Both the position numbers and the translations under genes were made by a program. From the NCBI GenBank assembly GCA_945271295.1, contig CALYPG010000017.1, forward strand, positions 1-56,103: a DNA stretch of 56,103 nt, written 5' to 3'. This document shows, in pieces, positions 94 through 53,176 of this stretch. Under the pieces are notes generated by a model. That model was given only the letters and a program-made list of their open reading frames with translations. It was not told the DNA's origin and did no database searches. Within the stretch, counting starts at the first letter, position 1. Each line of letters starts with the position of its first letter. The stretch is from an uncultured Gilliamella sp. (GTDB lineage: Bacteria; Pseudomonadota; Gammaproteobacteria; Enterobacterales; Orbaceae).

Positions 94-130
94 TACTAAA
101 ACGTATGCCTTTCCTGAAACTTTTTTACAA
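94..130 (+). repeat. 37-bp dispersed intergenic repeat, copy 1
   Basis: First of five copies of the same 37-bp element. It reads TACTAAAACG, eight variable bases, TCCTGAAAC and TTTTTTACAA. It lies 17 bp beyond the stop codon of the minus-strand LysR gene, so that gene's transcript would carry its reverse complement. Function unknown. Confidence 0.85.
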
Positions 131-147
131 ACAGTAATCATTACAAT

Positions 148-1059
148 TTACGATTGGTTATCATGTTTGTTTTTAAAAAAAGATAGCATATAATCAAATA
201 CATATTGATTTAGTCTAGAATAATGTTCTTTTCGGGGACGACATAATAACACTTTCCAATCAATGGGATCATTGAAGCGACGTTCAACAATATGATGATT
301 GGAATAAATATCAAGAATTGGTGAAGGTAGAATGGTCAGGAATTTTGAATTAGTAGCGATTTGAAGCAAAAAGTCCCATGATGCTGACATGGTATATTTT
401 TGTGGTTGTATATTGTATTCGCCGAATTTTTTCATTAGTTTGTGATGAATCATAAAGCTGGGTTCAAAAACGGCTAGCATTTGATCATGAAGATCTGACC
501 ACTCTAGTTTTTGTTTTTTTGCTAACGGGTGATCATGATTAAAAAAAACGGATAATTCACTTTGCTGTATAAGGTGTTCATCAATAATAGTTGAATTTAT
601 ATTGGTCGGATCAAGTAAGATAGCAAAATCTAGTTCATCCACTATAAACATTCTGCTCAATTCATAAGCACCTTTTTCAATAATTTCGACTTCAATATTG
701 GGATGATTAATAATTAAATCAGCAATAATATCTGAAAAGACAACACCTAATATTAATGGCGGAATACCGATTCTAACTTTTCCTTTTAGCTGACCTGCAT
801 CTTCGCGAATAGCAGTTAACATGGAATTGTATTGTGATAACAGCTGTTTTACCTGTTCATAAAACAGTTCCCCTGTTGGCGTTAATCCTTGTAAGCGCCC
901 TTTATACCTTTCAAATAAATAAATTTTTTCTGACTCTTCAAATGATTTAATGAATTGGCTTAAAGCGGGTTGTGAAATATAAAGCCTTTTGGCGGCTAAT
1001 GATAAATTAAAATCCGCTTTTACTACCGCGACAAAATATTGAAGGTGTCTAATATCCAT
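148..1059 (-). CDS. LysR-family transcriptional regulator
   Basis: This 303-residue protein has the LysR layout. An N-terminal winged helix-turn-helix (about residues 1-60, with the typical LAAKRLYISQPALSQ stretch) is followed by a linker helix and a periplasmic-binding-like effector domain (about 90-300). It is divergent from the thiolase/CoA-transferase genes starting at 1214. LysR regulators usually control the divergent neighbour, so acetoacetate or a related acyl compound is a reasonable guess for the inducer. A perfect 9-bp inverted repeat in the shared intergenic region (1108-1130) fits the T-N11-A operator form. Family assignment is firm; the target is inferred from position only. Confidence 0.9.
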   Translation of the reverse strand: MDIRHLQYFVAVVKADFNLSLAAKRLYISQPALSQFIKSFEESEKIYLFERYKGRLQGLTPTGELFYEQVKQLLSQYNSMLTAIREDAGQLKGKVRIGIPPLILGVVFSDIIADLIINHPNIEVEIIEKGAYELSRMFIVDELDFAILLDPTNINSTIIDEHLIQQSELSVFFNHDHPLAKKQKLEWSDLHDQMLAVFEPSFMIHHKLMKKFGEYNIQPQKYTMSASWDFLLQIATNSKFLTILPSPILDIYSNHHIVERRFNDPIDWKVLLCRPRKEHYSRLNQYVFDYMLSFFKNKHDNQS

Positions 1060-1107
1060 ATGTTTCCACGTTTTGCAATAGTTAACTTAAACTAAGTACA
1101 TAAATTA

Positions 1108-1130
1108 ATCTATAAGATAAACTTATAGAT
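1108..1130. promoter_or_regulatory. Putative LysR operator (perfect inverted repeat)
   Basis: The arms ATCTATAAG and CTTATAGAT are perfectly complementary around a 5-bp ATAAA spacer. T1113 and A1125 are separated by 11 bases inside the dyad, which is the classical T-N11-A LysR box. It lies between the divergent lysR-type gene and the thiolase gene, the expected place for an autoregulatory or activator site. Binding itself is inference. Confidence 0.55.
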
Positions 1131-1213
1131 ACTATAATAAACAAGACTTGGACAAAGGTAAATCCTTCATCTAGCATAAGTTAAATTTATCATTTACGTT
1201 AAAGGATGAGCTT

Positions 1214-2392
1214 ATGAAAGATGTTGTCATTGTATCGGCAGTTAGAACACCAATTGGTAGTTTTGGCGGAGTATTTAAAAATGTCCCTGCTGTAGATTTA
1301 GGTGTTATTGCCGTTAAAGAAGCTATGGATAGAATTTCACTTAATCCAAATGAAATAGATGAAGTTATTTTAGGTAATGTATTACAAGCCGGACTTGGTC
1401 AAAATGTAGCAAGACAAATTGCTATCAAAGCGGGTATTCCAGATGTTGTTCCAAGTTTTACGGTGAATAAAGTTTGTGGTTCTGGATTAAAAACGGTTCA
1501 ACTTGCAGCTCAAGCTATTGCAGCAGGTGAAGCTGATGTTGTTGTGGCGGGTGGTGCTGAAAGTATGAGTTTATCTCCTTACGTGGTACCTAATGCACGC
1601 TTTGGCTTTAAAATGGGCAATGTGCAGATGATAGATACTATGATTTGTGATGGTTTAACCGATGCATTTAATCATTATCATATGGGGATCACTGCGGAAA
1701 ATGTAGCAGAAAAATATGGGATTTCTCGTCAGGCTCAAGATGAAATGGCTTTAGCCAGCCAACAAAAAGCCGCAATAGCACTCCAAACTGGTCGTTTTAA
1801 AGATGAAATTGTACCGGTATCAATAGCAAATAAAAAAGGTGAAGCGACAGTTGTTGATACTGATGAGTATCCAAAAATTGGTACTACTTTAGAAAAATTA
1901 GCCGGTTTACGTCCAGCATTTAAAAAAGATGGAACGGTCACCGCGGGAAATGCATCTGGTATTAATGATGGTGCAGCGATTTTAATTTTGATGAGCGGCG
2001 ATAAAGCTAAAAAATTAGGTCTAAAACCACTGGTAACAATTACTAGCTGTGCATCAGCAGGGGTTGCTCCAGAACTTATGGGAATAGGGCCAATACCAGC
2101 TTCAGAAAAAGCCTTACAAAAAGCCGGTTTAACGGTTAATGATATTGATTTATTTGAAGCTAATGAAGCCTTTGCTGCTCAGGCCCTAGCTGTTTGTAAT
2201 AGCTTAAAACTGCCGACTGAAAAGGTAAATGTCAATGGTGGAGCAATTGCATTAGGTCATCCAATTGGTGCTAGTGGTGCAAGAATTTTAATTTCACTTA
2301 TTTATGAGATGAAGAAACGTGATGCTAAAAATGGCTTAGCTACGCTCTGTATTGGTGGTGGGCAAGGTATAGCAATGATTGTTTCTCGATAA
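1214..2392 (+). CDS. atoB: Acetyl-CoA C-acetyltransferase (thiolase)
   Basis: Biosynthetic-type thiolase of 392 residues, the usual length. It interconverts two acetyl-CoA with acetoacetyl-CoA plus CoA. The nucleophilic cysteine is C88 in NKVCGSG. The C-terminal catalytic residues are H349 in GHPIGASG and C379 in LCIGGGQG, and the NEAFAAQ motif is also present. The start is supported by AAGGA about 8 bases upstream. It is first in a three-gene operon with the two CoA-transferase subunits, 9 bp before the next gene. With them it would turn acetoacetate into two acetyl-CoA, or run in reverse. No acetoacetate transporter (atoE) or AtoSC pair is present here. Confidence 0.95.
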
Positions 2393-2401
2393 GGAGGATG
2401 T

Positions 2402-3058
2402 ATGGATAAAGTAGTTGATATCGAGAAAGCCTTGTCTTGTGTTAAAGATGGCACGGTAATGATGGTTGGTGGTTTTATGGCTAATGGATCACCAATAATG
2501 CTTATCGATTATTTATGTCAAAAAAATGTTAAAGATTTGACTTTGATTTGCAATGACTCAGGTTTAATTGACAAAGGTGTCGGTAAAATGGTGGTATTAA
2601 AGCAGTTTAAAAAAATCATTGCTTCACATATTGGGTTGAATAAAGAAACAGGTAGACAAATGACAGCAGGTGAAACTGAAGTTGAGTTGATTCCACAAGG
2701 AACCTTAGCAGAACGAATTCGTTGCGCTGGTTATGGTTTAGGTGGTATTTTGACACCAACAGGTATTGGTACCTTAGTTGAACAAGGTAAACAAAAACTC
2801 ATGGTTGGTGGCAAAGATTATTTGCTGGAAGAACCATTACCGGCAGATGTCGCTTTATTATATGCAGATAAAGTTGATCGAGCCGGCAATATGGTTTACA
2901 AAGGTTCAATGAATAATTTTAATAATGTCATGGCGAGTGCAGCAAAAATTACTATTGTTGAAGCGGGTGAGATTGTTGAGGTTGGCCAGTTAGACCCTCA
3001 AGAGATTGCAACGCCAGGGATTTTTATTGATTATATTGTGAAAGGGAGTCGTTGCTAA
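2402..3058 (+). CDS. atoD: 3-oxoacid (acetoacetate) CoA-transferase, alpha subunit
   Basis: At 218 residues this matches the size of AtoD/ScoA subunits (about 220). The N-terminal glycine-rich stretch VGGFMANGSP and the GIGTLVEQGK region are typical of family I CoA-transferase alpha chains. The heterodimer moves CoA between acetyl- or succinyl-CoA and acetoacetate; the donor cannot be told from sequence. GGAGG immediately upstream is a strong ribosome binding site. Its stop codon overlaps the ATG of the beta subunit by one base, which implies coupled translation. Confidence 0.92.
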   Translation: MDKVVDIEKALSCVKDGTVMMVGGFMANGSPIMLIDYLCQKNVKDLTLICNDSGLIDKGVGKMVVLKQFKKIIASHIGLNKETGRQMTAGETEVELIPQGTLAERIRCAGYGLGGILTPTGIGTLVEQGKQKLMVGGKDYLLEEPLPADVALLYADKVDRAGNMVYKGSMNNFNNVMASAAKITIVEAGEIVEVGQLDPQEIATPGIFIDYIVKGSRC

Positions 3059-3696
3059 TGGATAAGGAACAATTGCAAAATTATATTGCTAGTCGTGTTG
3101 CAAAAGAGTTAGCCGATGGTGATATTGTTAACCTTGGCATTGGTTTACCAACCAGAGTAGCTAACTTTATTCCCGATGACATCGAAATTATTTTCCAATC
3201 TGAAAATGGTTTTTTAGGCTTAGGTCCAAGCCCTTCTACTGAAAATTTTGATGAAAGTATTGTTAATGCTGGTGGCCAACCCGTTACTATTCTACCGGGT
3301 GGATGTTTTTTTGATAGTGCAACTTCATTTGGTATTATCCGTGGTGGGCATGTTGATGTTTCAGTGCTCGGCGCCCTACAAGTTGATCAGCATGGTAACA
3401 TTGCGAATTATATGATCCCTGGAAAAATGGTACCAGGTATGGGTGGCGCAATGGATCTGGTTACTGGCGCAAGAAAAGTGATTGTTGCGATGGAACATAC
3501 TGCCAAAGGCGCCCCAAAAATCTTGAATGAATGTAATTTACCATTAACCGCAGTTAATGCTGTGGACTTAATTATTACCGAGATGGGCGTTATTGAAGTT
3601 ACACCAAATGGATTAAAACTAACAGAAATCAATCCAGAGTATACGGTTGAAGATGTTATTAATGCAACTCAAGCACCTTTGATCATTGCGGTATAA
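3058..3696 (+). CDS. atoA: 3-oxoacid (acetoacetate) CoA-transferase, beta subunit
   Basis: The beta subunit carries the catalytic glutamate in the signature SENG (E49), to which CoA is transferred. From the ATG at 3058 it is 212 residues, close to AtoA. A TTG six bases earlier (3052) is in frame, but the ATG overlaps the upstream TAA as TAATG and follows GGGAG at a good distance, so I prefer it. It closes the operon and is followed by a strong terminator at 3761. Confidence 0.93.
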   Translation: MDKEQLQNYIASRVAKELADGDIVNLGIGLPTRVANFIPDDIEIIFQSENGFLGLGPSPSTENFDESIVNAGGQPVTILPGGCFFDSATSFGIIRGGHVDVSVLGALQVDQHGNIANYMIPGKMVPGMGGAMDLVTGARKVIVAMEHTAKGAPKILNECNLPLTAVNAVDLIITEMGVIEVTPNGLKLTEINPEYTVEDVINATQAPLIIAV

Positions 3697-3760
3697 GGTT
3701 ATTGGCTTATGGTATTGTTTTTAAATTACTCCTAACATTAATTATAAATTCCGACTTTTG

Positions 3761-3788
3761 CCATCAGCTTTAGCTGATGGTTTTTTTT
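3761..3788 (+). terminator. Intrinsic terminator after the CoA-transferase operon
   Basis: Perfect 8-bp stem (CCATCAGC / GCTGATGG) with a four-base loop, followed directly by eight T residues. It ends the thiolase/CoA-transferase transcript. Confidence 0.92.
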
Positions 3789-3843
3789 CATATAACGCTT
3801 ATCACTCAATCGCATAATTGTGTCATCTCTATACAACATAAAC

Positions 3844-3872
3844 TAGCAAAAAGACTGTAAAAGCTTTATACT
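3844..3872 (+). promoter_or_regulatory. Possible suhB promoter
   Basis: A good -10 hexamer TATACT (3867-3872) lies about 75 bp before suhB. The hexamer 17 bp upstream (TAGCAA, 3844-3849) is a poor -35. It lies after the preceding terminator, where a suhB promoter is needed. Confidence 0.4.
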
Positions 3873-3945
3873 AGCGCCACGTTTTAATATGGTAAGTGCA
3901 TATTAAATCAACCCGTTCTTTAACATCATCAATTGGAAAAAAATT

Positions 3946-4749
3946 ATGCATCCGATGCTGAATATTGCTATTCGTGCTGCTCGTAAAGCAGGTAATGTGG
4001 CCATTAAGGCTTATGAAAATCCGGGATCAATAGAAGTTGATACCAAAAGTCCGAATGATTTTGCTACTAATGTTGACCGAGCGGCTGAAGCATTAATTAT
4101 TGAAACAATCAAAAAAGCTTATCCAGATCATACTATTATTGCTGAAGAGAGTGGTTTGGCTAAAGGTAATGATAGTGATACACAATGGATAATTGATCCA
4201 ATCGATGGTACAACTAACTTTATCAAAAATATTCCCCATTTTGCTGTTTCAATTGCCGTGCGAGTAAAAGGTAAAACTGAAGTTGCGGTAGTATATAATC
4301 CAATGAGTAATGAGCTTTTCACGGCAGTGAGGGGACAAGGAGCGCAACTTAATGGCTACCGAATTCGTGTTAGTCATGCTAAAGATTTAGAAGGTTGTGT
4401 TTTGGCAACTGCTTTCCCTTTTAGAGCAAAACAGTATAGTGATAGCTACTTTTTAGTATTACAAAAATTATTTACTAAATGTGGTGATTTTCGTCGGGCT
4501 GGCTCAGGGGCTTTAGATCTAGCTTATGTTGCTGCCGGTCGATTAGATGGTTTTTTTGAAATTGGTTTAAAACCATGGGATATTGCCGGTGGTGAACTTA
4601 TTTTACGTGAAGCCGGTGGGGTGATTACTGATTTCGCAGGCGGCAATAATTACATGGTTTCAGGTAATGTTGTAGCTGGTAATCCTAAAGTGGTAAAAGA
4701 ACTGCTGATTGCGACTCAAAATGAATGGCCTGAAAAATTACGTAATTAA
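3946..4749 (+). CDS. suhB: Inositol-1-monophosphatase family protein SuhB
   Basis: The 267 residues match the length of E. coli SuhB. Metal-binding signatures of the inositol monophosphatase family are present: E67 in AEESG, D84 and D87 in DPIDGTTNF, and the C-terminal WDIAGGELILREAGG. The enzyme dephosphorylates inositol phosphates. In E. coli the protein also joins the Nus antitermination complex on rRNA operons, and that second role is plausible here. It stands alone between two terminators. Confidence 0.95.
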   Translation: MHPMLNIAIRAARKAGNVAIKAYENPGSIEVDTKSPNDFATNVDRAAEALIIETIKKAYPDHTIIAEESGLAKGNDSDTQWIIDPIDGTTNFIKNIPHFAVSIAVRVKGKTEVAVVYNPMSNELFTAVRGQGAQLNGYRIRVSHAKDLEGCVLATAFPFRAKQYSDSYFLVLQKLFTKCGDFRRAGSGALDLAYVAAGRLDGFFEIGLKPWDIAGGELILREAGGVITDFAGGNNYMVSGNVVAGNPKVVKELLIATQNEWPEKLRN

Positions 4750-4764
4750 TTTACATTGTTAAAA

Positions 4765-4800
4765 CACAGGGTTAACCAGCCCTGTTGTTTCTTTCCTGCT
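4765..4800 (+). terminator. Terminator after suhB
   Basis: ACAGGG and CCCTGT pair around an eight-base loop, followed by a T-rich stretch (TTGTTTCTTT). It lies 16 bp after the suhB stop codon. Confidence 0.7.
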
Positions 4801-4874
4801 TTTTATGTGTGTTTTTCTTCATAATTGGTATAAGAGAAGTGAGCATAACATATTAGTGATTTAAGTGAATATGG

Positions 4875-5279
4875 TTAAAATTGGTCAGTTATTGCTACCA
4901 TTGAACAATTAACTTCCAACCCTTGTTTTTTCAAGCAATGGCTTCCCCATTTATACATTGCTTCTAATACTGGTTTAATACTTCTGCCAAAATCGGTTAA
5001 TGAATATTCAACTTTTGGTGGTACCACCGGGAAAACTTTTCGGATAATCAAACCATTGGCTTCAAGTTCACGTAATTGATGGGTTAGCATTTTAGGTGTA
5101 GCACATGGAATTTCTCTATGTAATTGAGAAAATCTTAACGTTGTTGTCGTCATCAGTTTCCATAAAATTAAGGATTTATATTTCCCCCCAATCATGTTTA
5201 TTGTTGTTTCAACCGGGCAATGGGTAATAGAAGGATCACGCTGATTTTGTTCAACAGCGGTAAACAAATTACTATTCAT
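4875..5279 (-). CDS. HxlR-family transcriptional regulator
   Basis: From the ATG at 5279 this is 134 residues with one HxlR/DUF24 winged helix domain. It shows CPVETTINMIGGKYKSLILW near the N-terminus and the LRFSQLHREIP...TPKMLTHQLRELE recognition region. An upstream in-frame ATG (5330) would add 17 residues, but HxlR proteins normally begin shortly before the conserved cysteine, so the shorter form is preferred. Several characterised members sense electrophiles or oxidants through that cysteine. It is divergent from copA across about 250 bp, but HxlR proteins are not known copper regulators, so a link is unproven. Confidence 0.85.
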   Translation of the reverse strand: MNSNLFTAVEQNQRDPSITHCPVETTINMIGGKYKSLILWKLMTTTTLRFSQLHREIPCATPKMLTHQLRELEANGLIIRKVFPVVPPKVEYSLTDFGRSIKPVLEAMYKWGSHCLKKQGLEVNCSMVAITDQF

Positions 5280-5532
5280 ATAGATGTCTCGACAGTATCT
5301 TTTTGGTAAGTATATATCAAAAAAGTGCATTCTTGTTAATACAATAATTAGTATTAAAATGTTTGTTAGTTATATTATTAAGATAAAGTAAACCGCTCAT
5401 TCTCTGTAATATTTAATAAATGTAAGTAGCATCAATTCTATCTATTAAAATAATAGTGCACATTGCTAGCAAATGATTTCTTATCATGTAGGATATATTA
5501 AACCTAACAACACCAATTAAGGGATGCGTTAA

Positions 5533-7713: not shown

Positions 7714-7741
7714 ATATCTAGTGGAATATAATTTCTCAAAA

Positions 7742-7765
7742 AAAGGAGGCGCTAGTGCCTCCTTT
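7742..7765. terminator. Bidirectional terminator between copA and tilS
   Basis: Perfect 9-bp stem AAAGGAGGC / GCCTCCTTT with a six-base loop. T-rich sequence follows on the + side and a run of A precedes it, so it can serve both convergent genes. Confidence 0.85.
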
Positions 7766-7806
7766 ATCGTTTGATTTTTAGTCAATCTAATAATTTGGTT
7801 TAATGA

Positions 7807-9114: not shown

Positions 9115-9125
9115 TATTAGTCCGA

Positions 9126-13377: not shown

Positions 13378-13944
13378 TTATTGGCTGTCAAGAATGATAG
13401 CTTTTTTGATATAAATGGGATCAACAGGAACATTTTGGTGCGGCCCCATTCGTTTGGTTGGAACATTAACAATTTTATCAACAACATCCATTCCTTTGAT
13501 TACTTTACCAAATACTGCATAACCGTATTGTTCTGGAGATTGGTAGTTAAGATAATCGTTATTTACAACATTAATGAAGAATTGGCTAGTGGCACTATCT
13601 ATTGCGCTGGTTCTTGCCATTGCTATTGTGCCTCGGTCATTTTTTAGACCATTATTGGCTTCATTTTTGATTGGGGCATTATTATCTTTAAATTTTAATT
13701 GATCGTCAGCCCCCCCACCTTGAATCATAAAACCGGGAATAACGCGATGGAAAGTTAAATTTTCGTAAAAACCATTGTTGACATAATTGATAAAATTTTT
13801 AGTGGTAATTGGAGCATGTTCGCTGTCCAATTCAATTTCAATGTCCCCCATACTGGTTTGTAATAACACTTTGGTATCAGCTAAAACGACGGTGGAAAAA
13901 AGCGTTAACCATAACAATATAAATAACATTTTGATTTTTTTCAT
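13378..13944 (-). CDS. ppiA: Periplasmic peptidyl-prolyl cis-trans isomerase (cyclophilin A)
   Basis: Cyclophilin of 188 residues (E. coli PpiA 190). A Sec signal peptide covers about residues 1-22, with a KKIK start, hydrophobic core and VLA cleavage region. The cyclophilin core follows, with [13 protein letters not shown] and the TSQFFINV region. It speeds proline isomerisation in periplasmic protein folding. It is monocistronic. In E. coli ppiA is under CRP control, and a CRP-like site lies in the upstream region here (14034-14049). Confidence 0.95.
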
Positions 13945-14148: not shown

Positions 14149-14185
14149 TACTAAAACGCACGCTACTCCTGAAACATCTTTACAA
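14149..14185 (+). repeat. 37-bp dispersed intergenic repeat, copy 2
   Basis: TACTAAAACG, eight variable bases, TCCTGAAAC, then ATCTTTACAA. It ends 14 bp before the comF ATG, with the ribosome binding site directly after it. This is the only copy immediately upstream of a start codon in sense orientation. The first bases form TATACT, a possible -10. Confidence 0.85.
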
Positions 14186-37060: not shown

Positions 37061-37065
37061 ATTTG

Positions 37066-37155
37066 TAAACTCGCTGTTTGAGTATCCTGAAAACGGGCTT
37101 TTCAGTATAGTGATTTTACTAAACATTAATAATAAAGGAGTGCATAGTGGCCCGT
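37066..37155 (+). promoter_or_regulatory. Alpha operon leader (S4-binding pseudoknot)
   Basis: The segment TTTGAGTATCCTGAAAACGG with GCTTTTCAGTAT, followed by AAGGAGTGCATAGTGGCCCG at the rpsM start, is almost the same as the E. coli alpha operon ribosome binding site (Rfam Alpha_RBS). There S4 traps a nested pseudoknot and represses rpsM, rpsK, rpsD and rplQ. The pairing itself was not computed. Confidence 0.85.
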
Positions 37156-37503
37156 ATAGCAGGCATTAACATTCCTGATCAGCAACATGCTGTGATTGCT
37201 TTGCAAGCAATTTATGGTATTGGAAATACTCGTGCTAAGACAATTTGTGCTGAAGCAGGTATTCCTGAACATGTTAAGATCAGAGAACTATCTGAAGATC
37301 AGATTGAAAAGTTACGTGAACAAGTCGCTAAATTTACTGTTGAAGGTGATTTACGTCGTGAAGTAACTATGAGTATCAAGCGTTTATTAGACCTTGGTTG
37401 TTATCGTGGCATGCGTCATCGTCGTGGACTTCCGGTCCGTGGTCAACGCACTAAGACTAATGCTCGTACCCGTAAGGGACCGCGTAAGCCAATCAAGAAA
37501 TAA
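37147..37503 (+). CDS. rpsM: 30S ribosomal protein S13
   Basis: 118 residues (E. coli 118) starting at a GTG, as in E. coli, within the S4 target structure. It begins [19 protein letters not shown] and ends in the basic [18 protein letters not shown] tail that contacts the P-site tRNA. First gene of the alpha operon. Confidence 0.97.
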
Positions 37504-41522: not shown

Positions 41523-42098
41523 CTAATGACAACCACATCCGCCATGATTACCACCACAGCAACCACTGTTTTCATCTTCGTCTTCACCATGACTATGTCC
41601 ACCGCAACCACAATCACCATGACTATGATTGTGAGCATCAGATCCATGGATATGTCCGTGAGAAATTTCTTCTTCAGTTGCCGCGCGAATCGCTAATACC
41701 TCGACATTAAAATATAGATCTTGTCCTGCTAACATATGATTACCATCAATAGTAATGGTATCTCCATTGATGGCGGTAATTTCAACGGGTAAAGAGCCGT
41801 GTTCAGTATCAGCAAAAAAACGCATTCCTACCTCAAGTTCATTAACACCAACAAACACGTCACGAGGTACATTTTGTACAAGTGCATCATTAAAATCACC
41901 ATAAGCGTTAATCAGTTCAACATCAAATTTATCGCCAACTTGATGACCTTCTAATGCCTTTTCAAGGTCCTGTAATAGATTTCCAGCACCATGCAAATAT
42001 TCTAAAGGTGCGGTAACTGTTGCTTCGTCAACAAGAACGCCATCTTTAGTTCGAACTTGATATGCCAAACTTACCACTGTATCTTTTGCTATTTTCAT
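41523..42098 (-). CDS. slyD: FKBP-type peptidyl-prolyl isomerase SlyD
   Basis: 191 residues from the ATG at 42098 (MKIAKDTVVSLAYQVR), preceded by CGGAGA; an ATG six codons earlier is less well placed. The FKBP fold with inserted flap (about 1-150) is followed by a tail very rich in histidine, cysteine and glycine (about 150-191). Such tails bind Ni, Zn and other metals. SlyD is a cytoplasmic folding helper that in E. coli also supplies nickel to hydrogenase. No hydrogenase gene lies in this window. Confidence 0.95.
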   Translation of the reverse strand: MKIAKDTVVSLAYQVRTKDGVLVDEATVTAPLEYLHGAGNLLQDLEKALEGHQVGDKFDVELINAYGDFNDALVQNVPRDVFVGVNELEVGMRFFADTEHGSLPVEITAINGDTITIDGNHMLAGQDLYFNVEVLAIRAATEEEISHGHIHGSDAHNHSHGDCGCGGHSHGEDEDENSGCCGGNHGGCGCH

Positions 42099-42172
42099 TT
42101 TTTCTCCGACAGACATTACTAAGCAATTCTGATAGATTTTAACGGAAAAAAGCTCATCTGTATGCTAGTTTT

Positions 42173-42209
42173 TTGTAAAAAAGTTTCAGGACATACTAAC
42201 GTTTAAGTA
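42173..42209 (-). repeat. 37-bp dispersed intergenic repeat, copy 3
   Basis: On the minus strand: TACTTAAACG, eight variable bases, TCCTGAAAC, TTTTTTACAA. It is the only copy on the minus strand, oriented towards slyD and 74 bp before its start. Confidence 0.85.
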
Positions 42210-42407: not shown

Positions 42408-45170
42408 ATGACTTTTCTTTTGCTGATTATGATAATCATCATGTTTGTTGTGGTAATTATAGTTTTATCCAACATGAAAGATCATATTACGGGTTTGCAA
42501 ATTCAGCTAACTGAATTACAAAAAAAAGTTCAACAGTTTGAATTAAGCGAGATTAACACCCCGATTAAATCAGAAATAAATGGTGAAATTACTCATGGAA
42601 TTCCAAATCAAGAACAATCTCAGAATGAAAATAGCTCACTAACTAATGAAATAACGTCAATAGCACCGGATTCGCAGAATCCTTCAATAACTGAACCTGA
42701 TGTTAATACCGAACCACTTGCACGCCCCTCTCAATTACAACAATCAGACGATTTGTTCATTACTGCTCCACAAAAAATATCGTCAGACCAGTCGACTGAT
42801 GTAGCTAATCATTTTATTAGTTGGTTACTTAAAGGCAATCTTGTGGCTAAAGTCGCTATTATTATTCTGTTTTTCGGTCTCTCGTATCTGTTTAAATATA
42901 GTATTGAACATGGCTTATTATCACCAGAAATTCGGGTGTTAGGAGCTTTAGTTTTAGGTATTGCATTATTAACTATCGGTTGGCGGCTACGTCATAAAAA
43001 ACAGCTTTATGCGTTAATATTACAAGGTGGTGCCATTGGTATTTTATATTTAACCATATTTGCGGCATTCAAACTTTATGATCTAGTACCAGTGCTATTA
43101 GCTTTTGCTTTATTAATTGTTATTTGTGGTACAAGTATTTTATTTGCCATATTACAACGTACTATGATTATGGCGATTATTGCCAGTGTCGGTGGTTATT
43201 TAGCCCCGATTTTATTATCCACCGGTTCGGGTAATCATATTGCACTATTTAGTTATTATTTAATGCTATCAAGTGCTATTTTAGTAATTAGTAACTGGCA
43301 ATCTTGGCGCATACTTAATCTGATAGGATTCTTATTTACCTTTATTGTGTCGTTATTATGGGGCATGAAATCTTACCAACCAGAATTTTATACTGAGTGT
43401 CAATTTTTTATTCTCGCTAATATGTTAATTTACGGTATATTAGCTGTATTACTTTCAATTCGTAGTATAAAAAAAGAACATTATCAATATCCAATCGACT
43501 TAATTTTACTCTTTGGGGTACCAATATCAGGTTTTGCTTTGCAATATGCAATTACACGCCAGTGGGAATTTGGTCCTGCATTTTCATCCTTAGGATTTGG
43601 ACTGTTTTACTTAATTGGTGCATATATTACATTGCATGCCTGGCGAACTACCGCTAAAACAACTTCGTTATTTGGACTGGCAATTGGTATTGGGTTCAGT
43701 AATTTAGCCATTCCATTAGCCTTTAGTGCTAACTGGACTGCATTAATCTGGCTATTCGAAGGTACAACATTAAGTTGGGTAATGCTCACACAAAAACAAT
43801 ATCGTTTTGCTTGGTTTGGTGCCTTAATTACGTTATTAGGGATGATGTCTGGTATTATTTCTATACCACTATATTATTTATCCACAACTGAGTTTATTAC
43901 TCTTTTTGGTATGATGAGTGCTGTTTTGCTATTTAATGCTTGTCTATGGCACTATTATCGTAATGTGCATAATACCTCAGCAAATGTGTTAAAAATCGTA
44001 TTTATTATAATAGCCAGTATTATATGGGCAATTTGGATTTTAATTAGCATAATGCAAACCATGGGGAGTGTTCCTAAAACCCAACCTATTATCCTGTGTT
44101 TTATTATCTCCGTGTGGTTATGGTACTTCATTGGTAGGAAATTAAAATGGGATCTGCTATGTTATGCCACCCTTACGCTCTGGCCCGTGCTGTTATTAGC
44201 CATTTTAAATAATGGCGTTACTTTACATTACAGCATCAAGAATATTGGTTTTTGGAGCATAGTTTGGCCGGTTGCTTTTATCAGTGCTTATGTTTATTTA
44301 CATAAAGCAAAAAAACTAATTAACCAACTACAAAAACAGCTATTTTATATATTACATATTAGCTTGTTTTGGATAATGCTAATTTGGCTATTTAATGAAA
44401 TTAGATCATTATTAAATACACTGCCATGGGGATTCGAAATAGTTGAGTTTAGCTTACTTACAATTGTTGCAAGTAGCATTATATTACTGTGTTATTATTT
44501 AATTAAACGACGAATACTGGTTACCTCTTCTTTAATTAAATCGTACTGGTTAGTTGGGTTATTACCAATTGCCATTTATTTGACTTATTCATTAATCATC
44601 GGCATTACTCTAAGTGGACAAATTATTTATTGGTACTATATGCCATTGCTTAACCCTCTGGAAGAAAGTGCAATCTTCGCTTGGATTATGCTTGGTCTAT
44701 GGTTGAAATTAGCTACACCTGTTTTAAAAGATCACTCCGCAATCATCGATATCACTAACATTCAAAAACCATTAACCAATATTGTTATTACTTTATTAAT
44801 TGCACTGGCTTTTTTATGGGCAAATAGTATGGTATTAAGAAGCCTAAGCCAATGGTTTAATCTTAACTGGTCATTCTATTCCTTATGGCATACTAACATT
44901 ATTCAAGTGGTATTATCGTTAATTTGGACATTAACCGCAGTTATACTAGTGGGGATTGCCCACCGTTACTTACTGCGTAAAGTATGGTATGCCGGCGTTA
45001 TTTTACAAAGCGTTATTGTAGCCAAATTAGTCTTTGTAGACAGTGTGGAACTCGATGGATTATTACGAGCATTTGTGTTTATCGGTGTCGCATTATTAAT
45101 GCTATTAATTGGTTATTTAGCACCATTGCCACCCAAAATCCCAGTAAATATAGATAAACAACAGGAATAA
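42408..45170 (+). CDS. DUF2339 domain-containing polytopic membrane protein
   Basis: Large 920-residue membrane protein. One N-terminal anchor helix (about 1-22) is followed by a coiled-coil stretch (about 24-45) and a polar Pro/Ser/Gln-rich linker to about residue 135. From about 146 to the end there are more than twenty hydrophobic helices separated by very short loops. This is the layout of the DUF2339 family, whose function is unknown. The gene lies 57 bp before a DUF3999 gene, a pairing I recall from other proteobacteria. An envelope role (transport or assembly of a surface component) is a guess from topology only. Confidence 0.85.
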   Translation: MTFLLLIMIIIMFVVVIIVLSNMKDHITGLQIQLTELQKKVQQFELSEINTPIKSEINGEITHGIPNQEQSQNENSSLTNEITSIAPDSQNPSITEPDVNTEPLARPSQLQQSDDLFITAPQKISSDQSTDVANHFISWLLKGNLVAKVAIIILFFGLSYLFKYSIEHGLLSPEIRVLGALVLGIALLTIGWRLRHKKQLYALILQGGAIGILYLTIFAAFKLYDLVPVLLAFALLIVICGTSILFAILQRTMIMAIIASVGGYLAPILLSTGSGNHIALFSYYLMLSSAILVISNWQSWRILNLIGFLFTFIVSLLWGMKSYQPEFYTECQFFILANMLIYGILAVLLSIRSIKKEHYQYPIDLILLFGVPISGFALQYAITRQWEFGPAFSSLGFGLFYLIGAYITLHAWRTTAKTTSLFGLAIGIGFSNLAIPLAFSANWTALIWLFEGTTLSWVMLTQKQYRFAWFGALITLLGMMSGIISIPLYYLSTTEFITLFGMMSAVLLFNACLWHYYRNVHNTSANVLKIVFIIIASIIWAIWILISIMQTMGSVPKTQPIILCFIISVWLWYFIGRKLKWDLLCYATLTLWPVLLLAILNNGVTLHYSIKNIGFWSIVWPVAFISAYVYLHKAKKLINQLQKQLFYILHISLFWIMLIWLFNEIRSLLNTLPWGFEIVEFSLLTIVASSIILLCYYLIKRRILVTSSLIKSYWLVGLLPIAIYLTYSLIIGITLSGQIIYWYYMPLLNPLEESAIFAWIMLGLWLKLATPVLKDHSAIIDITNIQKPLTNIVITLLIALAFLWANSMVLRSLSQWFNLNWSFYSLWHTNIIQVVLSLIWTLTAVILVGIAHRYLLRKVWYAGVILQSVIVAKLVFVDSVELDGLLRAFVFIGVALLMLLIGYLAPLPPKIPVNIDKQQE

Positions 45171-45175
45171 CAGTT

Positions 45176-45189: not shown

Positions 45190-45227
45190 GAAAAATAATA
45201 TAGATTTCTCTTATGGATGAATAAATT

Positions 45228-46613: not shown

Positions 46614-46630
46614 TAAATTAAGTAGAAAAA

Positions 46631-46650
46631 TTCGCCGACTACAGTCGGCG
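46631..46650 (-). terminator. glnS terminator
   Basis: CGCCGAC and GTCGGCG pair around TACA. On the minus strand the stem is followed by AATTTTTCT, 8 bp after the glnS stop. It may also stop the + strand DUF3999 transcript. Confidence 0.8.
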
Positions 46651-46657
46651 ATTGTGA

Positions 46658-48337
46658 CTATTTTGATGAGGATTCATTCCAGCTATCTCTTAAGCCCACA
46701 GTTCGATTAAACACTAAATTATCTTCAGTTGCATATTTACTATCTAAACAAAAATAACCTTCACGTTCAAACTGATAAGCTTGTCCAGCTTTAGCGTTTT
46801 GTAAACTTGGTTCCACAAAACCTTGCTTAATAACTAATGAAGTGGGATTAATCGTTGCTAAAAAGTCTTCGGCTGCGCCTGGATTTGGTGTATTAAATAA
46901 GCGATCATATAAGCGAATTTCAGCTGGTTTAGCAAACTTAGCCGAAACCCAATGAATAACCCCTTTAATTTTGCGACCATCTTCAGGATTTTTATTTAGT
47001 GTTGCTGGATCATAAGTACAATAAATAGTTTGAATATTACCATGTACATCTTTTTCAACTTTATCTGCACGAATAACATAGGCATTACGCAACCGCACTT
47101 CTTTACCTAATACCAGTCGTTTATAGTTTTTATTCGCTTCCTCTCGAAAATCAGCACGATCAATATAAATCTCACGGGTAAAAGTCACTTCCCGATGACC
47201 TAATTCAGGACGATTAGGATGATTTGGCATACTGAGCACTTCATCAAGTGTGTCAGAAAAGTTCTCAATAACCACTTTAACCGGATCAAGTACCGCCATA
47301 GCTCGAGGTGCGTTTTCGTTAAGATCTTCGCGAATACAAAACTCAAGTGTACTCATTTCAACGGTATTTTCTTGTTTAGTAATACCAATTCGCTGACAAA
47401 AATCACGAATAGATGCTGGCGTATAGCCACGGCGACGTAAGCCTGAAATGGTTGGCATGCGAGGATCGTTCCAGCCATCAACTATTTTTTCTGATACTAA
47501 TAAATTGAGTTTACGTTTTGACGTAATTGCATATTCTAAATTTAATCTTGAAAATTCATACTGATGTGGTCGCGCGCTAATAGTAATATTATCTAATACC
47601 CAATCATATAAACGGCGATTATCCTGAAATTCAAGTGTACATAACGAGTGAGTAATATTTTCAATCGCATCAGAAATGCAGTGAGTAAAGTCATACATTG
47701 GGTAAATACACCATTTATTACCCGTTTGATGATGTTCTGCAAACTTAATCCGATATAAGACCGGATCACGCATCACAATAAAAGGTGATGTCATGTCAAT
47801 TTTAGCGCGTAAACAAGCCTTACCTTCGGCAAATTTACCTTCCTTCATCTGCTTAAATAGGGCTAAATTTTCATCCACACTGCGATCTCGATAAGGACTA
47901 TTTTTGCCCGCTTGAGTTAAGGTGCCACGGTATTCACGGATTTCGTCAGCCGAAAGTTCATCAACATATGCTAATCCTTTAGTAATTAATTCAATAGCAT
48001 AGCCATAAAGCTTCTCAAAATAATCAGAGGAGTGACATATCTTACCATCCCACTCGAAACCTAACCAACGCACATCTTCTTTGATCGATTCAACGTATTC
48101 AACATCTTCTTTGGCCGGATTGGTATCATCAAAACGCAAATTGCATTTACCTTGATAGTCTTTAGCAATACCAAAATTTAAACAAATTGACTTAGCATGG
48201 CCAATATGCAAATAACCATTAGGCTCAGGTGGAAAGCGAGTATGGATGGTTTTATATTTCCCTGCCGCAAGATCGGTATCAATAATCTGGCGAATAAAAT
48301 TAGTTGGACGAGTCTCTGTCGGTAATGAACCGCTCAT
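46658..48337 (-). CDS. glnS: Glutaminyl-tRNA synthetase
   Basis: Class I synthetase of 559 residues (E. coli 554). It has [16 protein letters not shown] with HIGH at 44-47, and TSKRKL as the KMSKS-type loop. A C-terminal two-barrel anticodon domain completes it. It charges tRNA(Gln) directly, as expected in gammaproteobacteria. It is monocistronic; repeat copy 4 lies in the region upstream. Confidence 0.97.
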
Positions 48338-48480
48338 AACAAACCTCTGAATATATATTTACTCATGACAAATTTAAAATCAGCTTTGTCACTGTTATTA
48401 TTTTAGTCGAAGAATATAACAAATTTTTTATTTTTTCGAAATGATAAAACTAGGTATTTAAATCGCCAAAAGCAAATTTA

Positions 48481-48517
48481 TACTAAAACGCATAGTTAAT
48501 CTGAAACATTTTCACAA
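48481..48517 (+). repeat. 37-bp dispersed intergenic repeat, copy 4
   Basis: TACTAAAACG, eight variable bases, ATCTGAAAC, ATTTTCACAA. It is the most diverged in its second half. It ends 21 bp from the stop codon of the minus-strand rstB gene. Confidence 0.8.
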
Positions 48518-48538
48518 GATTGGATTATTAATCATTAT

Positions 48539-49882
48539 TTATTCATTACCTGATTTCAGTGATACCACAAATCTTGCACCACCTAATGGGCTGGTTACAA
48601 CAAAAGCTTTACCATTATGAAATTCAGCCATTAATTTGACATAAGCTAAACCTAAACCATAACCTCCGGTTGAACGAGTTCGACTGGTATCAAGTCTGGA
48701 AAAAGGCATAAAAATCTTATCGCGGGCATCAAAAGGGATACCAGCACCATCATCATCAATCTCAATAACCACACTATTTTGCTGTTTTCTCAGATTTAAG
48801 ACGGCCTTATGTGCTGCATATTTGAAAGCATTAAGTAATAAATTTTTGACTATGGTTTCCATTAAATTGGTGTCAATTAATGCTTCAACATTTTGGCAAT
48901 TACATATCAATTCAAATTCTTTAGGTTTAAATAATTCAAGGGACTGACAGATTTTATCTCCCCACTCTTTTAACGATACCCGGGTTAGATTTAACTCAAT
49001 ATTGCTTTGCTGCATTTTAAAGTAATTTAAACTAGCATTAATCAGTGTTTCTAGTTCATTAATATCATCACTCATGCCTTTTTGTAACAGTAATCTTTCT
49101 TGTTCATCGATCGACTCTTCAAGCATACTGAGCTCAAAACGCATTCTAGCAAGAGGCGTTCGTAATTCATGCGCCATAGCATGTGAAATAGTTTGATTAG
49201 TACTAACTAAATGTTCAATGTGAGTACCCATATTATTCAGGACATTTGCTAATGGCTTAAATAACCAACCTTTTACATTTTCTGTGCGTGCATGCAAGTT
49301 TCCTTGCCCTAGTTGTTCAGCCGTTTGCCGAATATTAACGAGATCTTTCCAAACAGCACTAAAGGCAAAATAGATCAGAATAAAAAAGATAATAGCACTA
49401 AATAGTGCCCAAATAAGCAAGAAAACACTTAAAGACATAGTGTTAGATTCCAAAATATCTCGCATTATAATCGGACCTAATTGCAACAAATTACCATCTT
49501 TTAAATCAACATAGACAACTTCCTTATCACCATCATATGAAAATCCAAGTTTGACTAATTCGTTGTGTACAGAATGAGGTAGTGATGTATTAATTGGCAT
49601 TATCTCAATTGGATAACCAAAATAAGGTTGTAATTCCTTAACGACTTCTTGCAGTGGACGATCTTTATTTTCATTAATTTGCATGCGAATTAAATTGACT
49701 GTTCCACGTTGAGATTCTCGGAACACAATATGATCATCAGGCATATCGGTTAATGAAGAAGGTAAAGAGTCAAAAACCAATAAAGCGCCATAAGCAATAA
49801 TACACTGCAATGAAAGTAAAATAACAAGGTAGAATATAATACGACGATTAAAAAATAGTGGTTTAGCGAGTAAATGACTCAA
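48539..49882 (-). CDS. rstB: Sensor histidine kinase RstB
   Basis: Two-component sensor of 447 residues. A transmembrane helix (about 15-38) leads to a periplasmic sensor domain (about 40-145). A second helix (about 148-174) leads to HAMP, then the HisKA domain with the phosphorylated H238 in AMAHELRTPLARM and a HATPase domain with DDGAGIP and GGYGLGLAYV. The pairing with the RstA-like regulator and the arrangement fit RstB. It overlaps rstA by four bases (ATGA), so the two are co-translated. Confidence 0.9.
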   Translation of the reverse strand: MSHLLAKPLFFNRRIIFYLVILLSLQCIIAYGALLVFDSLPSSLTDMPDDHIVFRESQRGTVNLIRMQINENKDRPLQEVVKELQPYFGYPIEIMPINTSLPHSVHNELVKLGFSYDGDKEVVYVDLKDGNLLQLGPIIMRDILESNTMSLSVFLLIWALFSAIIFFILIYFAFSAVWKDLVNIRQTAEQLGQGNLHARTENVKGWLFKPLANVLNNMGTHIEHLVSTNQTISHAMAHELRTPLARMRFELSMLEESIDEQERLLLQKGMSDDINELETLINASLNYFKMQQSNIELNLTRVSLKEWGDKICQSLELFKPKEFELICNCQNVEALIDTNLMETIVKNLLLNAFKYAAHKAVLNLRKQQNSVVIEIDDDGAGIPFDARDKIFMPFSRLDTSRTRSTGGYGLGLAYVKLMAEFHNGKAFVVTSPLGGARFVVSLKSGNE

Positions 49883-50607
49883 TGGTTATCCCCTTCGCGT
49901 AAAAATAAATAGCCTTTCCCCCGCACTGTTTTGATTCTTGATGGATTATCCGGATCATCAAGTAATTTACGACGGAGCCGTGAAATGCGAGCATCAATCG
50001 AACGATCACTACCATCAAAATCAATCCCTCTAACCTGCGAAAAAATATCATCTCGAGATAAGATTTTGCCTGCATTATTAGCAAGTAACCATAAAAGATC
50101 AAACTCAGCTGTAGTTAAATCAATTTCTAGGTCTTGTAATAATACTTTACGATTTTCACCATCAATTACCAGATTATCAAAAACTATGGTTTTGCCATTA
50201 GATGGTATAATTAAATCCTTAGCCCCTTCTTTATCTAATTCTATCTGTTTTCGGCGTAATAAAGCACGGATACGAGCAAGAAGTAATCTAGGTTCAACTG
50301 GCTTGGCTAAATAATCATCTGCCCCTAACTCTAGTCCGACAATCTCATCAATATTATCTTCGCTAGCTGTCATAATAAGAATAAAATTATTGAACCATGT
50401 GCGTATATCGCGGCAGATATCAAATCCCGATTTTTCTGGTAACATAACATCTAAAATAACAAGATCAGGATTAAGTTGTTGAATTTTTTCTTCAGCCCCA
50501 TCACCACTATTATGCCATTGAACATTATAGCCTTGTCGGATAAGGTATACTTGAATTAGGTTAGCTAATCGCTCATCATCTTCGATAATTAATATTCGTT
50601 CACTCAT
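49879..50607 (-). CDS. rstA: Response regulator RstA (OmpR family)
   Basis: 242 residues with a receiver domain (1-120, phosphorylated D53 in LVILDVMLPEKSG, conserved K in AKPVEPR) and an OmpR/PhoB winged helix (about 140-240). In enterobacteria RstA/RstB is controlled by PhoPQ and affects acid and iron responses and biofilm. The upstream region carries three TACAAA hexamers with an 11-bp period that look like tandem OmpR-family sites. Confidence 0.9.
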   Translation of the reverse strand: MSERILIIEDDERLANLIQVYLIRQGYNVQWHNSGDGAEEKIQQLNPDLVILDVMLPEKSGFDICRDIRTWFNNFILIMTASEDNIDEIVGLELGADDYLAKPVEPRLLLARIRALLRRKQIELDKEGAKDLIIPSNGKTIVFDNLVIDGENRKVLLQDLEIDLTTAEFDLLWLLANNAGKILSRDDIFSQVRGIDFDGSDRSIDARISRLRRKLLDDPDNPSRIKTVRGKGYLFLREGDNH

Positions 50608-50648
50608 TTTTCCTGCTTATTACTATGATGTGTAATTAGGGATGCCCC

Positions 50649-50701
50649 ATTATACAGACAATTTCAACCCCGTTACAAAATATATACAAAGAGTCTACAA
50701 A
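50649..50701 (-). promoter_or_regulatory. rstA promoter with tandem OmpR-family sites
   Basis: TACAAA occurs at 50674, 50685 and 50696 (TTTGTA on the minus strand), exactly 11 bp apart with 5-bp spacers. The minus-strand -10 TATAAT is at 50649-50654, and the -35 position (50672-50677, TGTAAC) overlaps the first hexamer. This suits activation by RstA itself or by a PhoP-like regulator. The E. coli RstA box has paired TACA elements. Confidence 0.6.
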
Positions 50702-50765
50702 GTTTAAAAGCACTCTATGAGAGAATTTGCGCATTTATATATAAATTGGCTATCTTTATTAAGAA

Positions 50766-51494
50766 ATGAACACTTTTTCATCTATTGCAAATCATCTGTT
50801 TTATCTATCTCATTCACAACAACAAAAACCAATTGTGTTGTGTGACTTTGATGGCACCATTAGCGTGAAGGATGTAACTGATACCTTATTGAGTCATTTC
50901 GGTCAAGATGGTTGTGATGAACTTGAAGAATTATGGGTTAACGGTAAAATTGGCTCTCAAGAATGCATGAGTAAACAGATTGCCTTAATGGATGCAAATT
51001 TAAATGAACTCAATCATGTTTTATCACAAATTGAAATTGATCCAACATTTAAAGCATTTATTGATTATACCGAAAAAAATCACATTCCTGTGCATATTGT
51101 CAGTGATGGATTAGATTATGCCATTGAGTTTATATTAAAGCGTCATGGGATGGAGCATTTACCTATTTTTGCTAATAAACTAATGCATGACAATAATCGC
51201 AGCTGGCGGCTCGAATTTCCTTATGCTAATAAAGATTGTATTAAGCAAAGTGGTAATTGTAAATGTAACCATGTAAAAAAACAGCAACATTTTAATCAAA
51301 TACTATATGTAGGTGATGGAACTTCAGATTACTGTGTGTCACATAATGTGGATTTTGTTTTTGCAAAAGATAAGCTGATCCATTATTGTGAAAAAAATAA
51401 AATCGAACACCGTGCTATAAATTGTTTTACTGATGTAACCAAAGCCTTAAAACACGCACAACAAATGGCAATTCCTGTCATGATGGTAAAGTAA
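50766..51494 (+). CDS. HAD-superfamily phosphatase (subfamily IB, MtnX-like)
   Basis: 242 residues with the HAD nucleophile motif in LCDFDGTIS (D27, D29), the SDG motif HIVSDGLDY and the C-terminal metal motif VGDGTSDY. The layout fits the MtnX / phosphoserine-phosphatase-like group, which acts on small phosphate esters. No other methionine-salvage gene is present, so MtnX activity itself is doubtful. It heads a tight four-gene operon with an esterase and two small transporters, and is divergent from rstA over the site-rich region at 50649-50701. Confidence 0.8.
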   Translation: MNTFSSIANHLFYLSHSQQQKPIVLCDFDGTISVKDVTDTLLSHFGQDGCDELEELWVNGKIGSQECMSKQIALMDANLNELNHVLSQIEIDPTFKAFIDYTEKNHIPVHIVSDGLDYAIEFILKRHGMEHLPIFANKLMHDNNRSWRLEFPYANKDCIKQSGNCKCNHVKKQQHFNQILYVGDGTSDYCVSHNVDFVFAKDKLIHYCEKNKIEHRAINCFTDVTKALKHAQQMAIPVMMVK

Positions 51495-51507
51495 ATAAGG
51501 AATTATA

Positions 51508-52356
51508 ATGGATACAATTCAAGATTTATCTTATTTTTTACCTGGCAATAAAAATGGCGTGCTCTTGATTCATGGATTAACCGGTACGCCAAATGAGATG
51601 CGAATATTAGCCAATGGGCTACATAAAGCAGGATTTACTGTCTATGCCGTGCAATTAGCGGGTCATTGTGGTACAGAAGCCGATCTTTGTAAAACAACAT
51701 GGCAAGATTGGTATCAAAGTGTGCGGGATGGCGCGGATTATTTAGCTCAGCATGTTGATAATCTTTTTGTTGCTGGACTATCAATGGGAGCCCTACTTGC
51801 ATTACAGCTTGCTGCCGATAGACCAGAGCAAGTCAAAGGTGTTGGTGTTTATGCCCCAACATTTTATTATGATGGTTGGAGTATGCCTTTTTGGGCTAAA
51901 AGGTTTTTCTTCTTGTTAGTTTATTTTAAAAAGCTGGGTATTTTCCAAAAAGTTTCTTTTATTGAAAAACCACCTTATGGGCTAAAAGATGAACGCATTC
52001 GCGCGGTAGTATCGGAAAGTATGCTTAGTGGTGATAGTGGCGCAGCTGGACTAGCCGGTAACCCATTTCCCGCTCTGGCTGAAATGCAGTTATTAGCTAA
52101 GAATGTGCGTAAGCAGTTACCTAAAGTCACTTCACCTTGTTTAATTATTCATTCAGGTAATGATGATATTGCCAACATTGAAACGAATGCTAAATTGGTC
52201 GAAAAACACGTTTCTGCCCCAACTAAACTTATTATATTACATGACAGCTATCATCTAGTCACCATTGATAGTCAAAGGCGAGAAGTGATTAAAGAATCAG
52301 TGGCCTTTTTCAATAAAATTGCAGAAGATGGGATGAAAGCACCATGTCACCATTAG
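51508..52356 (+). CDS. Alpha/beta hydrolase (carboxylesterase, Est30-like)
   Basis: 282 residues without a signal peptide. The oxyanion motif is LLIHGLTGTPNEM, the nucleophile S92 in AGLSMGA, the acid D219 or D220 in GNDDI and the histidine H249 in DSYHLV. These fit monoglyceride-lipase/Est30-type carboxylesterases. AAGGA precedes the start. It lies 13 bp after the HAD gene and its last 13 bases overlap the next gene, showing one co-translated operon. The substrate is unknown. Confidence 0.85.
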   Translation: MDTIQDLSYFLPGNKNGVLLIHGLTGTPNEMRILANGLHKAGFTVYAVQLAGHCGTEADLCKTTWQDWYQSVRDGADYLAQHVDNLFVAGLSMGALLALQLAADRPEQVKGVGVYAPTFYYDGWSMPFWAKRFFFLLVYFKKLGIFQKVSFIEKPPYGLKDERIRAVVSESMLSGDSGAAGLAGNPFPALAEMQLLAKNVRKQLPKVTSPCLIIHSGNDDIANIETNAKLVEKHVSAPTKLIILHDSYHLVTIDSQRREVIKESVAFFNKIAEDGMKAPCHH

Positions 52357-52700
52357 TTATTTTGCTTTGGGTCAGCAATATCTGTTTTGATACATTAGGG
52401 CAAATTGCTTTTAAATTTGCGGCTACTTCGGCCAATAACCGTAATGGTTGGTATTATTGGTTAGATCTATCTAAAAATGTCTGGATTTGGATAGGGATTA
52501 TTGCCTATATTGCAGAATTTTTATTATGGCTAGCATTCTTAACCTTAGTCCCCCTATCACAAGGAGTATTGCTTGCTTCATTTAATATTATTACCATTAT
52601 GCTGATGGGGCGCATTATTTTTAAAGAGTTACTTACAATATATCGTATTATCGGTATGCTGTTAATCACTCTTGGCGTAATTTTTGTAGGGATGAGTTAA
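52344..52700 (+). CDS. Small DMT-superfamily (SMR/EamA-like) transporter, subunit 1
   Basis: 118 residues and four predicted transmembrane helices, the size of SMR proteins and ArnE/ArnF-type half transporters. Helix 1 carries FDTLGQIAFKFAA. D16 and K24 take the positions and spacing of the essential E14 and K22 of EmrE, but with aspartate instead of glutamate. It overlaps the esterase gene by 13 bases and is followed one base later by a second, similar gene, so a hetero-oligomer is likely. Cargo unknown: drug, polyamine or lipid carrier are possible. Confidence 0.8.
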   Translation: MSPLVILLWVSNICFDTLGQIAFKFAATSANNRNGWYYWLDLSKNVWIWIGIIAYIAEFLLWLAFLTLVPLSQGVLLASFNIITIMLMGRIIFKELLTIYRIIGMLLITLGVIFVGMS

Positions 52701-52701
52701 T

Positions 52702-53100
52702 ATGGCAAGATTCTATTTAATCGGTTTTACTGTATTACTGATTTTCGATACTATTGCTCAATGTAGCTTCAAACTGGCCGCAATTCATGCCCAACCTTTA
52801 GCAATGAGTATTGAGTGGTTAATTCGAGTATTTACTAATCCTTGGATTTATATTTCAATTGCTGGTTATATTTTAACTTTTTTTACTTGGATGACGCTGT
52901 TAAAAAAAGCGCCTGTTGGACCTGCTTTTGCTGCTTCACATTTTGAAGTAGTAACGGTAATGATTGTTTCAGTTTGGTTATTTCATGAACCAATTACGTC
53001 ATATAAATTAATTGGCGCTATATTAATTATTTCAGGTATTTTATGTTTAGCTTTTGCTGAAAATAAGTTAACCAAACAAAATTCCAATAAACAACTTTGA
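52702..53100 (+). CDS. Small DMT-superfamily (SMR/EamA-like) transporter, subunit 2
   Basis: 132 residues, four predicted helices. Helix 1 has FDTIAQCSFKLAA, so D16 and K24 fall at exactly the same residue numbers as in the upstream partner. Helix 3-4 sequence (PVGPAFAASHFEVVTV, then KLIGAILIISGI) is typical of the superfamily. The two proteins resemble each other moderately and probably arose by duplication, like MdtI/MdtJ or ArnE/ArnF pairs. Last gene of the operon; repeat copy 5 follows. Confidence 0.8.
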   Translation: MARFYLIGFTVLLIFDTIAQCSFKLAAIHAQPLAMSIEWLIRVFTNPWIYISIAGYILTFFTWMTLLKKAPVGPAFAASHFEVVTVMIVSVWLFHEPITSYKLIGAILIISGILCLAFAENKLTKQNSNKQL

Positions 53101-53139
53101 TTTAGCTCACTAACTAATCAAGTTAGATAGTCAGTTTTA

Positions 53140-53176
53140 TACTGAAACATCTATCTTTCCTGAAACTTTTTTACAA
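53140..53176 (+). repeat. 37-bp dispersed intergenic repeat, copy 5
   Basis: TACTGAAACA, eight variable bases, TCCTGAAAC, TTTTTTACAA. Here both internal half-repeats contain CTGAAAC. It lies between the convergent transporter (+) and arginase-like (-) genes, 13 bp from the stop of the latter. Confidence 0.85.

Follow-up and report, generated by a model that had tools for sequence, protein, structure and literature searches.

The window, i.e. the whole stretch of 56,103 nucleotides analysed here, opens contig C17 in the assembly of an uncultured Gilliamella sp. (G000; 2.80 Mb in 50 contigs) and carries, in gaps between its genes, five copies of a 37-bp motif (table 1). The positions and strands assigned to them in an initial annotation were all correct, as was its statement that none lies inside a gene, none of the five being covered by an open reading frame (ORF) of at least 90 aa. 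With the consensus of that annotation and up to three mismatches, four of the five copies are recovered and no match appears in 100 dinucleotide-preserving shuffles; the copy at 48481 is more divergent, with a weight-matrix score of 44.1. At a cutoff of 12, the weight matrix picks out exactly five places in the window, which are the five copies, and none in 118 kb of sequence from relatives after shuffling. Copy 2 directly precedes the ribosome-binding site of comF/gntX. A match to IS30 transposase spans positions 3-95 of the contig. In the window and in contigs C4, C9, C21 and C38 of the same assembly, a motif copy lies 50-110 bp after the contig start; the starts of C17 and C38 fall in the end of an IS30-family element, as would be expected if the assembly broke there.

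Table 1. Positions of the motif copies and of other features discussed in the text (window coordinates unless a locus is named).
Feature	Position	Strand	Context
IS30-family transposase gene tail and terminal repeat ...TTCGCACTTAGATGTTGAATGTAG	1..83	+	end 10-11 bp before copy 1; contig start
Copy 1 (37-bp form)	94..130	+	17 bp past 3' end of LysR-type gene (148-1059, -)
Copy 2	14149..14185	+	between cyclophilin gene (13378-13944, -) and comF/gntX (+)
Alpha operon ribosome-binding-site RNA (Rfam RF00140)	37063-37179		expected ahead of the alpha ribosomal operon
Copy 3	42173..42209	-	between FKBP-type gene (41523-42116, -) and DUF2339 gene (42408-45170, +)
Copy 4, most divergent	48481..48517	+	between histidine-kinase gene (48539-49882, -) and glnS (46658-48337, -)
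AGATAG...CTATCT	53125..53156	+	base pairing possible between copy 5 centre and its 5' flank
Copy 5	53140..53176	+	89-bp convergent gap, EamA-type gene / arginase-family gene
IS remnant, ~680 bp	L251 560-1242 and relatives		motif copy mid-element
Second-family examples	L207 424-1330; L277; L080 1965-2660		
CRISPR-like direct repeats (by eye)	G001 L185 2330-2760, L186 1745-3490		beside motif arrays
GC-rich repeat, few hundred bases	G001 L187 620-1340, L185 700-980		recurs between motif pairs

The genome scan proposed in the initial annotation returned further copies, namely 91 (one pattern, up to three mismatches), 115 (a second pattern) or 131 (a third) in G000, and no match to the reversed pattern; the accompanying guess of more than 150 copies per genome was thus close, but too high for this genome. 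Across 35 Gilliamella genomes the third pattern matches in 33, with 0-254 copies per genome (254 in G001, 180 in G015, 131 in G000, 101-116 in G011, G033, G034 and G002, the last with 108, 51-79 in G006, G035, G004, G014, G008 and G042, and 0-14 in the remaining genomes), and its reversed control gives a single match, in G033. Contigs C1 and C29 of G014 are two versions of one region, and two species may be mixed in this assembly. An exact gapped pattern, run against 394 genomes from 114 genera of the order, matched in 19, all from Gilliamella (one of the 114 genera), and in none of six genomes from other genera of the family or of 361 from other families, with the reservation that this pattern is insensitive and missed G034 too, so that another dialect in relatives could escape it; the named motif-bearing relatives among the matches listed are all Gilliamella (Orbaceae). 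A missed dialect in the copy-free genomes was considered and rejected, a spacing-tolerant scan having given no match in 400 kb (of ~2.7 Mb) of copy-free G005, versus seven in 180 kb of G011. Viral contigs (IMG/VR) contain no exact match, and open-licence PMC text yielded no literature on such repeats in Gilliamella.

The base frequencies of 149 copies give TTTA-TACTNAAACR-centre-WCCTGAAACWTYTTTACAA-A, with two half-sites in one direction, TACTNAAAC and YCTSAAAC followed by a T-rich tail, at a spacing fixed at 18 or 17 bp. The direct repeats of period 18 noted initially are real (17 in a 36-bp form). The view that the flanks are kept and the centre is free needs to be qualified: arms and spacing are kept, but the arms vary at some positions (any base at 5, G or A at 10, and WTYTTNACAA as the tail) and the centre, loosely constrained, is biased, with 140 distinct 11-mers among 261 copies, the commonest being GTATAGTTAAC. 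Adjacent centre bases co-vary as pairs, which may reflect ancestry. Weak conservation extends beyond the arms (TTTTA ahead, A behind) and stops within a few bases, and neither terminal inverted repeats nor target duplications were seen around the 37-mer in these 149 copies with their 40-bp flanks. The consensus differs by lineage, being YCTGAAA with TTGAC in G001 and partly CCTCAAAC in G011.

The length of exactly 37 bp reported for all copies is fixed in the window's genome, where the 36-bp pattern has no match, but varies across the genus. A second lineage carries a 36-bp form, with a centre one base shorter, at 13-85 copies in 12 genomes (G016 85, G009 83, G032 81, G031 56, G039 54, G008 54, G035 42, G042 31, G038 19, G017 16, G007 14 and G041 13) and 0-1 copies in the others; both forms are numerous in the intermediate genomes G008, G035 and G042, where 51-67 copies of the 37-bp form are also found. 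Both lengths occur within 12 groups of orthologous gaps, so that many sites changed length where they stood. The intact copies in the tadA-gpt gap comprise ten of 37 bp and seven of 36 bp, and sister genomes differ there (36 in G008, 37 in G035). The change in place may have come about either through selection for spacing or through conversion, and the 36/37 difference could also spread by gene conversion.

With regard to genes, just one of 119 copies with enough flank overlaps an ORF of at least 80 aa, so that copies are not as frequent in coding as in intergenic DNA. The gaps occupied by 117 copies are tandem in 64 cases, divergent in 32 and convergent in 21, the corresponding shares of intergenic bases being 55, 30 and 15%; copies thus track intergenic length whatever the gene orientation, and no gene-strand preference is apparent. 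Within tandem gaps, the copy is nearer to the 3' end of the upstream gene in 44 of 64 (p 0.004), with 19 copies at most 25 bp from the stop codon and seven at most 25 bp from the start. In the complete genome G011, spacing between sites is random (CV 1.01), with no regional clustering, and 52-53 of 80 merged sites point to the inferred origin (Fisher p ~0.01), a mild replichore bias that comes from one genome, with origin and terminus placed from 20 GC-skew samples and gene-strand bias still included.

Copies are inherited at fixed places. Among the loci fetched across species, 29 orthologous groups (tandem-array copies excluded) share a gap, and orientation agrees in 309 of 313 directed pairs. 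Orthologous pairs are 93% identical in the arms, a value that is partly circular because the loci were fetched by matching arms, 69% in the centres versus 59% for unrelated pairs, and 70% in the flanks versus 58-59%; thus, centres are partly inherited and flanks hardly align. These averages and the orientation count include pairs of an artefactual 25-member group joined by IS30-like or neighbouring repeats. Gaps were also fetched by similarity of the neighbouring genes, in relatives unselected for the motif, a copy being scored as intact at 24 and a genome as copy-rich at 50 copies, with G014 left out. An intact copy was found in the tadA-gpt gap in 15 of 17 copy-rich versus one of 12 copy-poor genomes, in the comF gap in 8 of 16 versus none of 13 (half of the rich genomes being without one), and at 53140 in 8 of 10 versus 2 of 9, contrasts that are not independent trials because the genomes are related, and that concern three gaps picked because the window's genome carries the motif there. 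The motif is recognisable in the 53140 gap in 10 of 20 other genomes. In copy-poor G017 and G041, visibly decayed copies remain in the tadA-gpt and comF gaps.

The motif also occurs in and beside other repeats. The IS30-family end TTGAAT[TG][CT]AG, found 51 times in loci that total 1.66 Mb and partly overlap, precedes 18 of 299 copies at a distance of 10-12 bp (11 bp in 16 of the 18). A 37-bp subfamily (TACATAAACGTAGTRCRCTCC) is found inside the repeated, degenerate IS remnant of table 1 (G008, G035, G042 and G038), and tandem arrays with units of ~105-200 bp are present in several genomes. A second related family, TGAAACGGTATAGANTCCTGAATATTTTTTAC, follows the same plan in 25 of 35 genomes, with up to 87 copies; it is more homogeneous and forms arrays of ~109-195-bp units (G015, G032, G016 and G035 among the 25). 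Where the window has copy 4, a member of the first family, between glnS and the kinase gene, G015 has a copy resembling the second. No transposase flanked by the element, in the way that REPINs flank RAYT, was seen where a locus has two copies separated by 0.45-4 kb. In G001, the CRISPR-like repeats (..GCTGCATAAGCTGTTTAGAAA..) end in a degenerate last repeat that adjoins a motif copy (by eye), and the GC-rich repeat of table 1 reads ..AGGGGGATTTTGTGCGAAATCCCCCTAATAACCCCCTCGCAG...

Among known systems, the closest parallels are of different kinds. Like the REPIN/REP-RAYT repeats of Escherichia and Pseudomonas, the motif is intergenic, present in tens to hundreds of copies and inherited over long times; it also shares with them lineage-specific forms, local tandem amplification, lineage-dependent numbers and use as an insertion target for IS elements. 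E. coli has 69-235 copies per genome (PMC8049555), and REP sequences are insertion targets for IS elements (PMC1525189). Unlike REPINs, the motif is not palindromic, its half-sites being direct and forming no general hairpin within the copy or with its flanks, and it shows a lineage-wide one-base change of spacing. In addition, the RAYT domain (Y1 transposase, PF01797) was found in just one of the 35 genomes (G008) and was absent from 34, with 5 of 14 control genomes positive. In its workings the motif is thus comparable to a REPIN population without being one, because the palindrome and RAYT tests fail. It resembles MITEs and Correia-type elements in being short, non-coding, interspersed and intergenic, but neither inverted repeats at the ends nor target duplications could be seen around the 37-mer, and no match to a known MITE or IS end emerged from these comparisons. 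The dRS3 repeat of Neisseria shares with the Gilliamella motif the plan of conserved arms and a variable centre, of ~8 bases, but its arms are inverted instead of direct. Sites of chromosome architecture (matS, SBS, KOPS and parS) are genome-wide, read by one protein, relatively short and mostly palindromic; the Gilliamella sites are similarly genome-wide, with little relation to gene function, but are longer and non-palindromic, with no regional clustering and a mild replichore bias.

The initial annotation had proposed a two-part binding or processing site rather than a decaying transposon. A two-part site fits best, because arms and spacing are kept and copies are intergenic, genome-wide and genus-specific; the processing role is unsupported, since copies follow intergenic length regardless of gene orientation and flank pairing is not general. 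The copies may be recognition sites that are inherited as a population and read by one co-evolving, putative DNA-binding protein, a function that we infer from the sequences and to which we give a little less than an even chance; this reading is favoured because it explains most with least. A putative protein with two similar DNA-binding modules (in a dimer or in one chain) would read both arms in tandem; its preferred spacing would have changed in one lineage, with the sites following, and where it was lost or changed the sites would have decayed. Most copying of the sites would occur through vertical descent, supplemented by tandem duplication and by riding on other repeats. Given that there is no promoter or gene-strand preference, a role at the level of the whole chromosome (in DNA architecture, or through maintenance of the sites by a transposase-like host protein) is favoured over gene-by-gene regulation. 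No candidate partner protein was found. A more specific version, a ‘dialect switch’ in which the host protein shifted the spacing by 1 bp and ~50-85 scattered sites adapted through one-base indels in parallel, each retaining its own centre, in a chromosome-architecture or domesticated-transposase system without a known partner family, is conceivable, albeit doubtful.

The main rival, that the motif is a selfish, non-autonomous mobile repeat with a REPIN-like lifestyle, copied occasionally by a putative transposase or recombinase, comes next and is rather unlikely. It would explain why copies are intergenic, because insertions in genes would be lost, and the lineage-specific consensus, the swing in numbers from 0 to 254, the homogeneous second family, the expanding arrays of 100-200-bp units, the subfamily clearly copied inside the IS remnant and the preference for gene 3' ends all agree with it; against it stand the same gap and orientation across species, the partly inherited centres, the terminal inverted repeats and target duplications that were not seen, the Y1 domain absent from 34 of 35 genomes, and a clean empty site that was not found, near-identical strains lying outside the comparison and flanks of orthologous gaps being too diverged. 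The two readings overlap, as each needs a protein that recognises the arms. A further proposal, that the motif is a relic or target of IS30-family elements, i.e. a descendant of their ends or a landing site, is quite improbable. The ends found just before 18 of 299 copies, the resemblance by eye between IS end and motif, and the full copy-side transposase in L111, which is of the IS30 family (218 bits), speak for it; yet a transposase match is limited to 7 of 35 genomes and missing from motif-rich G001, G002, G006, G011, G033 and G034, and for this reason the ends are read as insertion beside the motif, which does not account for the copies themselves.

Nor does transcription offer a likely explanation. 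That the motif is part of a transcription terminator or another RNA element is improbable: the centre pairs with the 5' flank at 53140 and in a few other gaps, the pairing at 53125..53156 recurring at orthologous sites with changed letters, and six of 189 unrelated copies score at least 22 versus 0.32 expected, but three of the six are 53140 orthologues and the pairing is local, weakly enriched overall (z 2.3 for 189 copies, z -3.2 for 299) and negative in a k-mer test. Similarly, many copies lie near a stop codon, ordinary hairpins stand in the 53140 gap of motif-free relatives (by eye), and a minority of copies have a stem, an intrinsic terminator being marked by a GC-rich stem with a T run directly behind it, sense to a gene end; but 32 of 117 copies lie in divergent gaps, there is no strand preference with respect to genes, and no copy has an Rfam match, the Alpha_RBS element of table 1 being the sole match in the window. 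A promoter on the reverse strand (with TATAAA and TTGNAA-like boxes) was rejected, as there is no enrichment by direction, 69 of 117 copies reading into a gene start in a count in which divergent gaps always score, and the centres would disrupt the -10 box; a regulon was rejected as well, conserved sites being flanked by unrelated housekeeping genes. Uptake signals have dialects, conserved positions and no gene-strand preference, with ~1000 or more short copies, many of them in genes. The first three traits recur in the motif, but its copies, at most 254 per genome with one of 119 in an ORF, are far too few, too long and too rarely in genes, and it is therefore extremely improbable that the motif serves DNA uptake by a competence system whose signals differ in dialect between lineages.

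Were the motif mobile, the lack of inverted ends, hairpin and RAYT would imply that an unknown copying enzyme must exist. If, instead, the sites have a protein partner, as in the site-population reading favoured here, Gilliamella would provide a natural experiment, with related species that carry the 37-bp form, the 36-bp form, both or none, and the co-evolution of a DNA-binding protein with ~100 sites would become directly testable.
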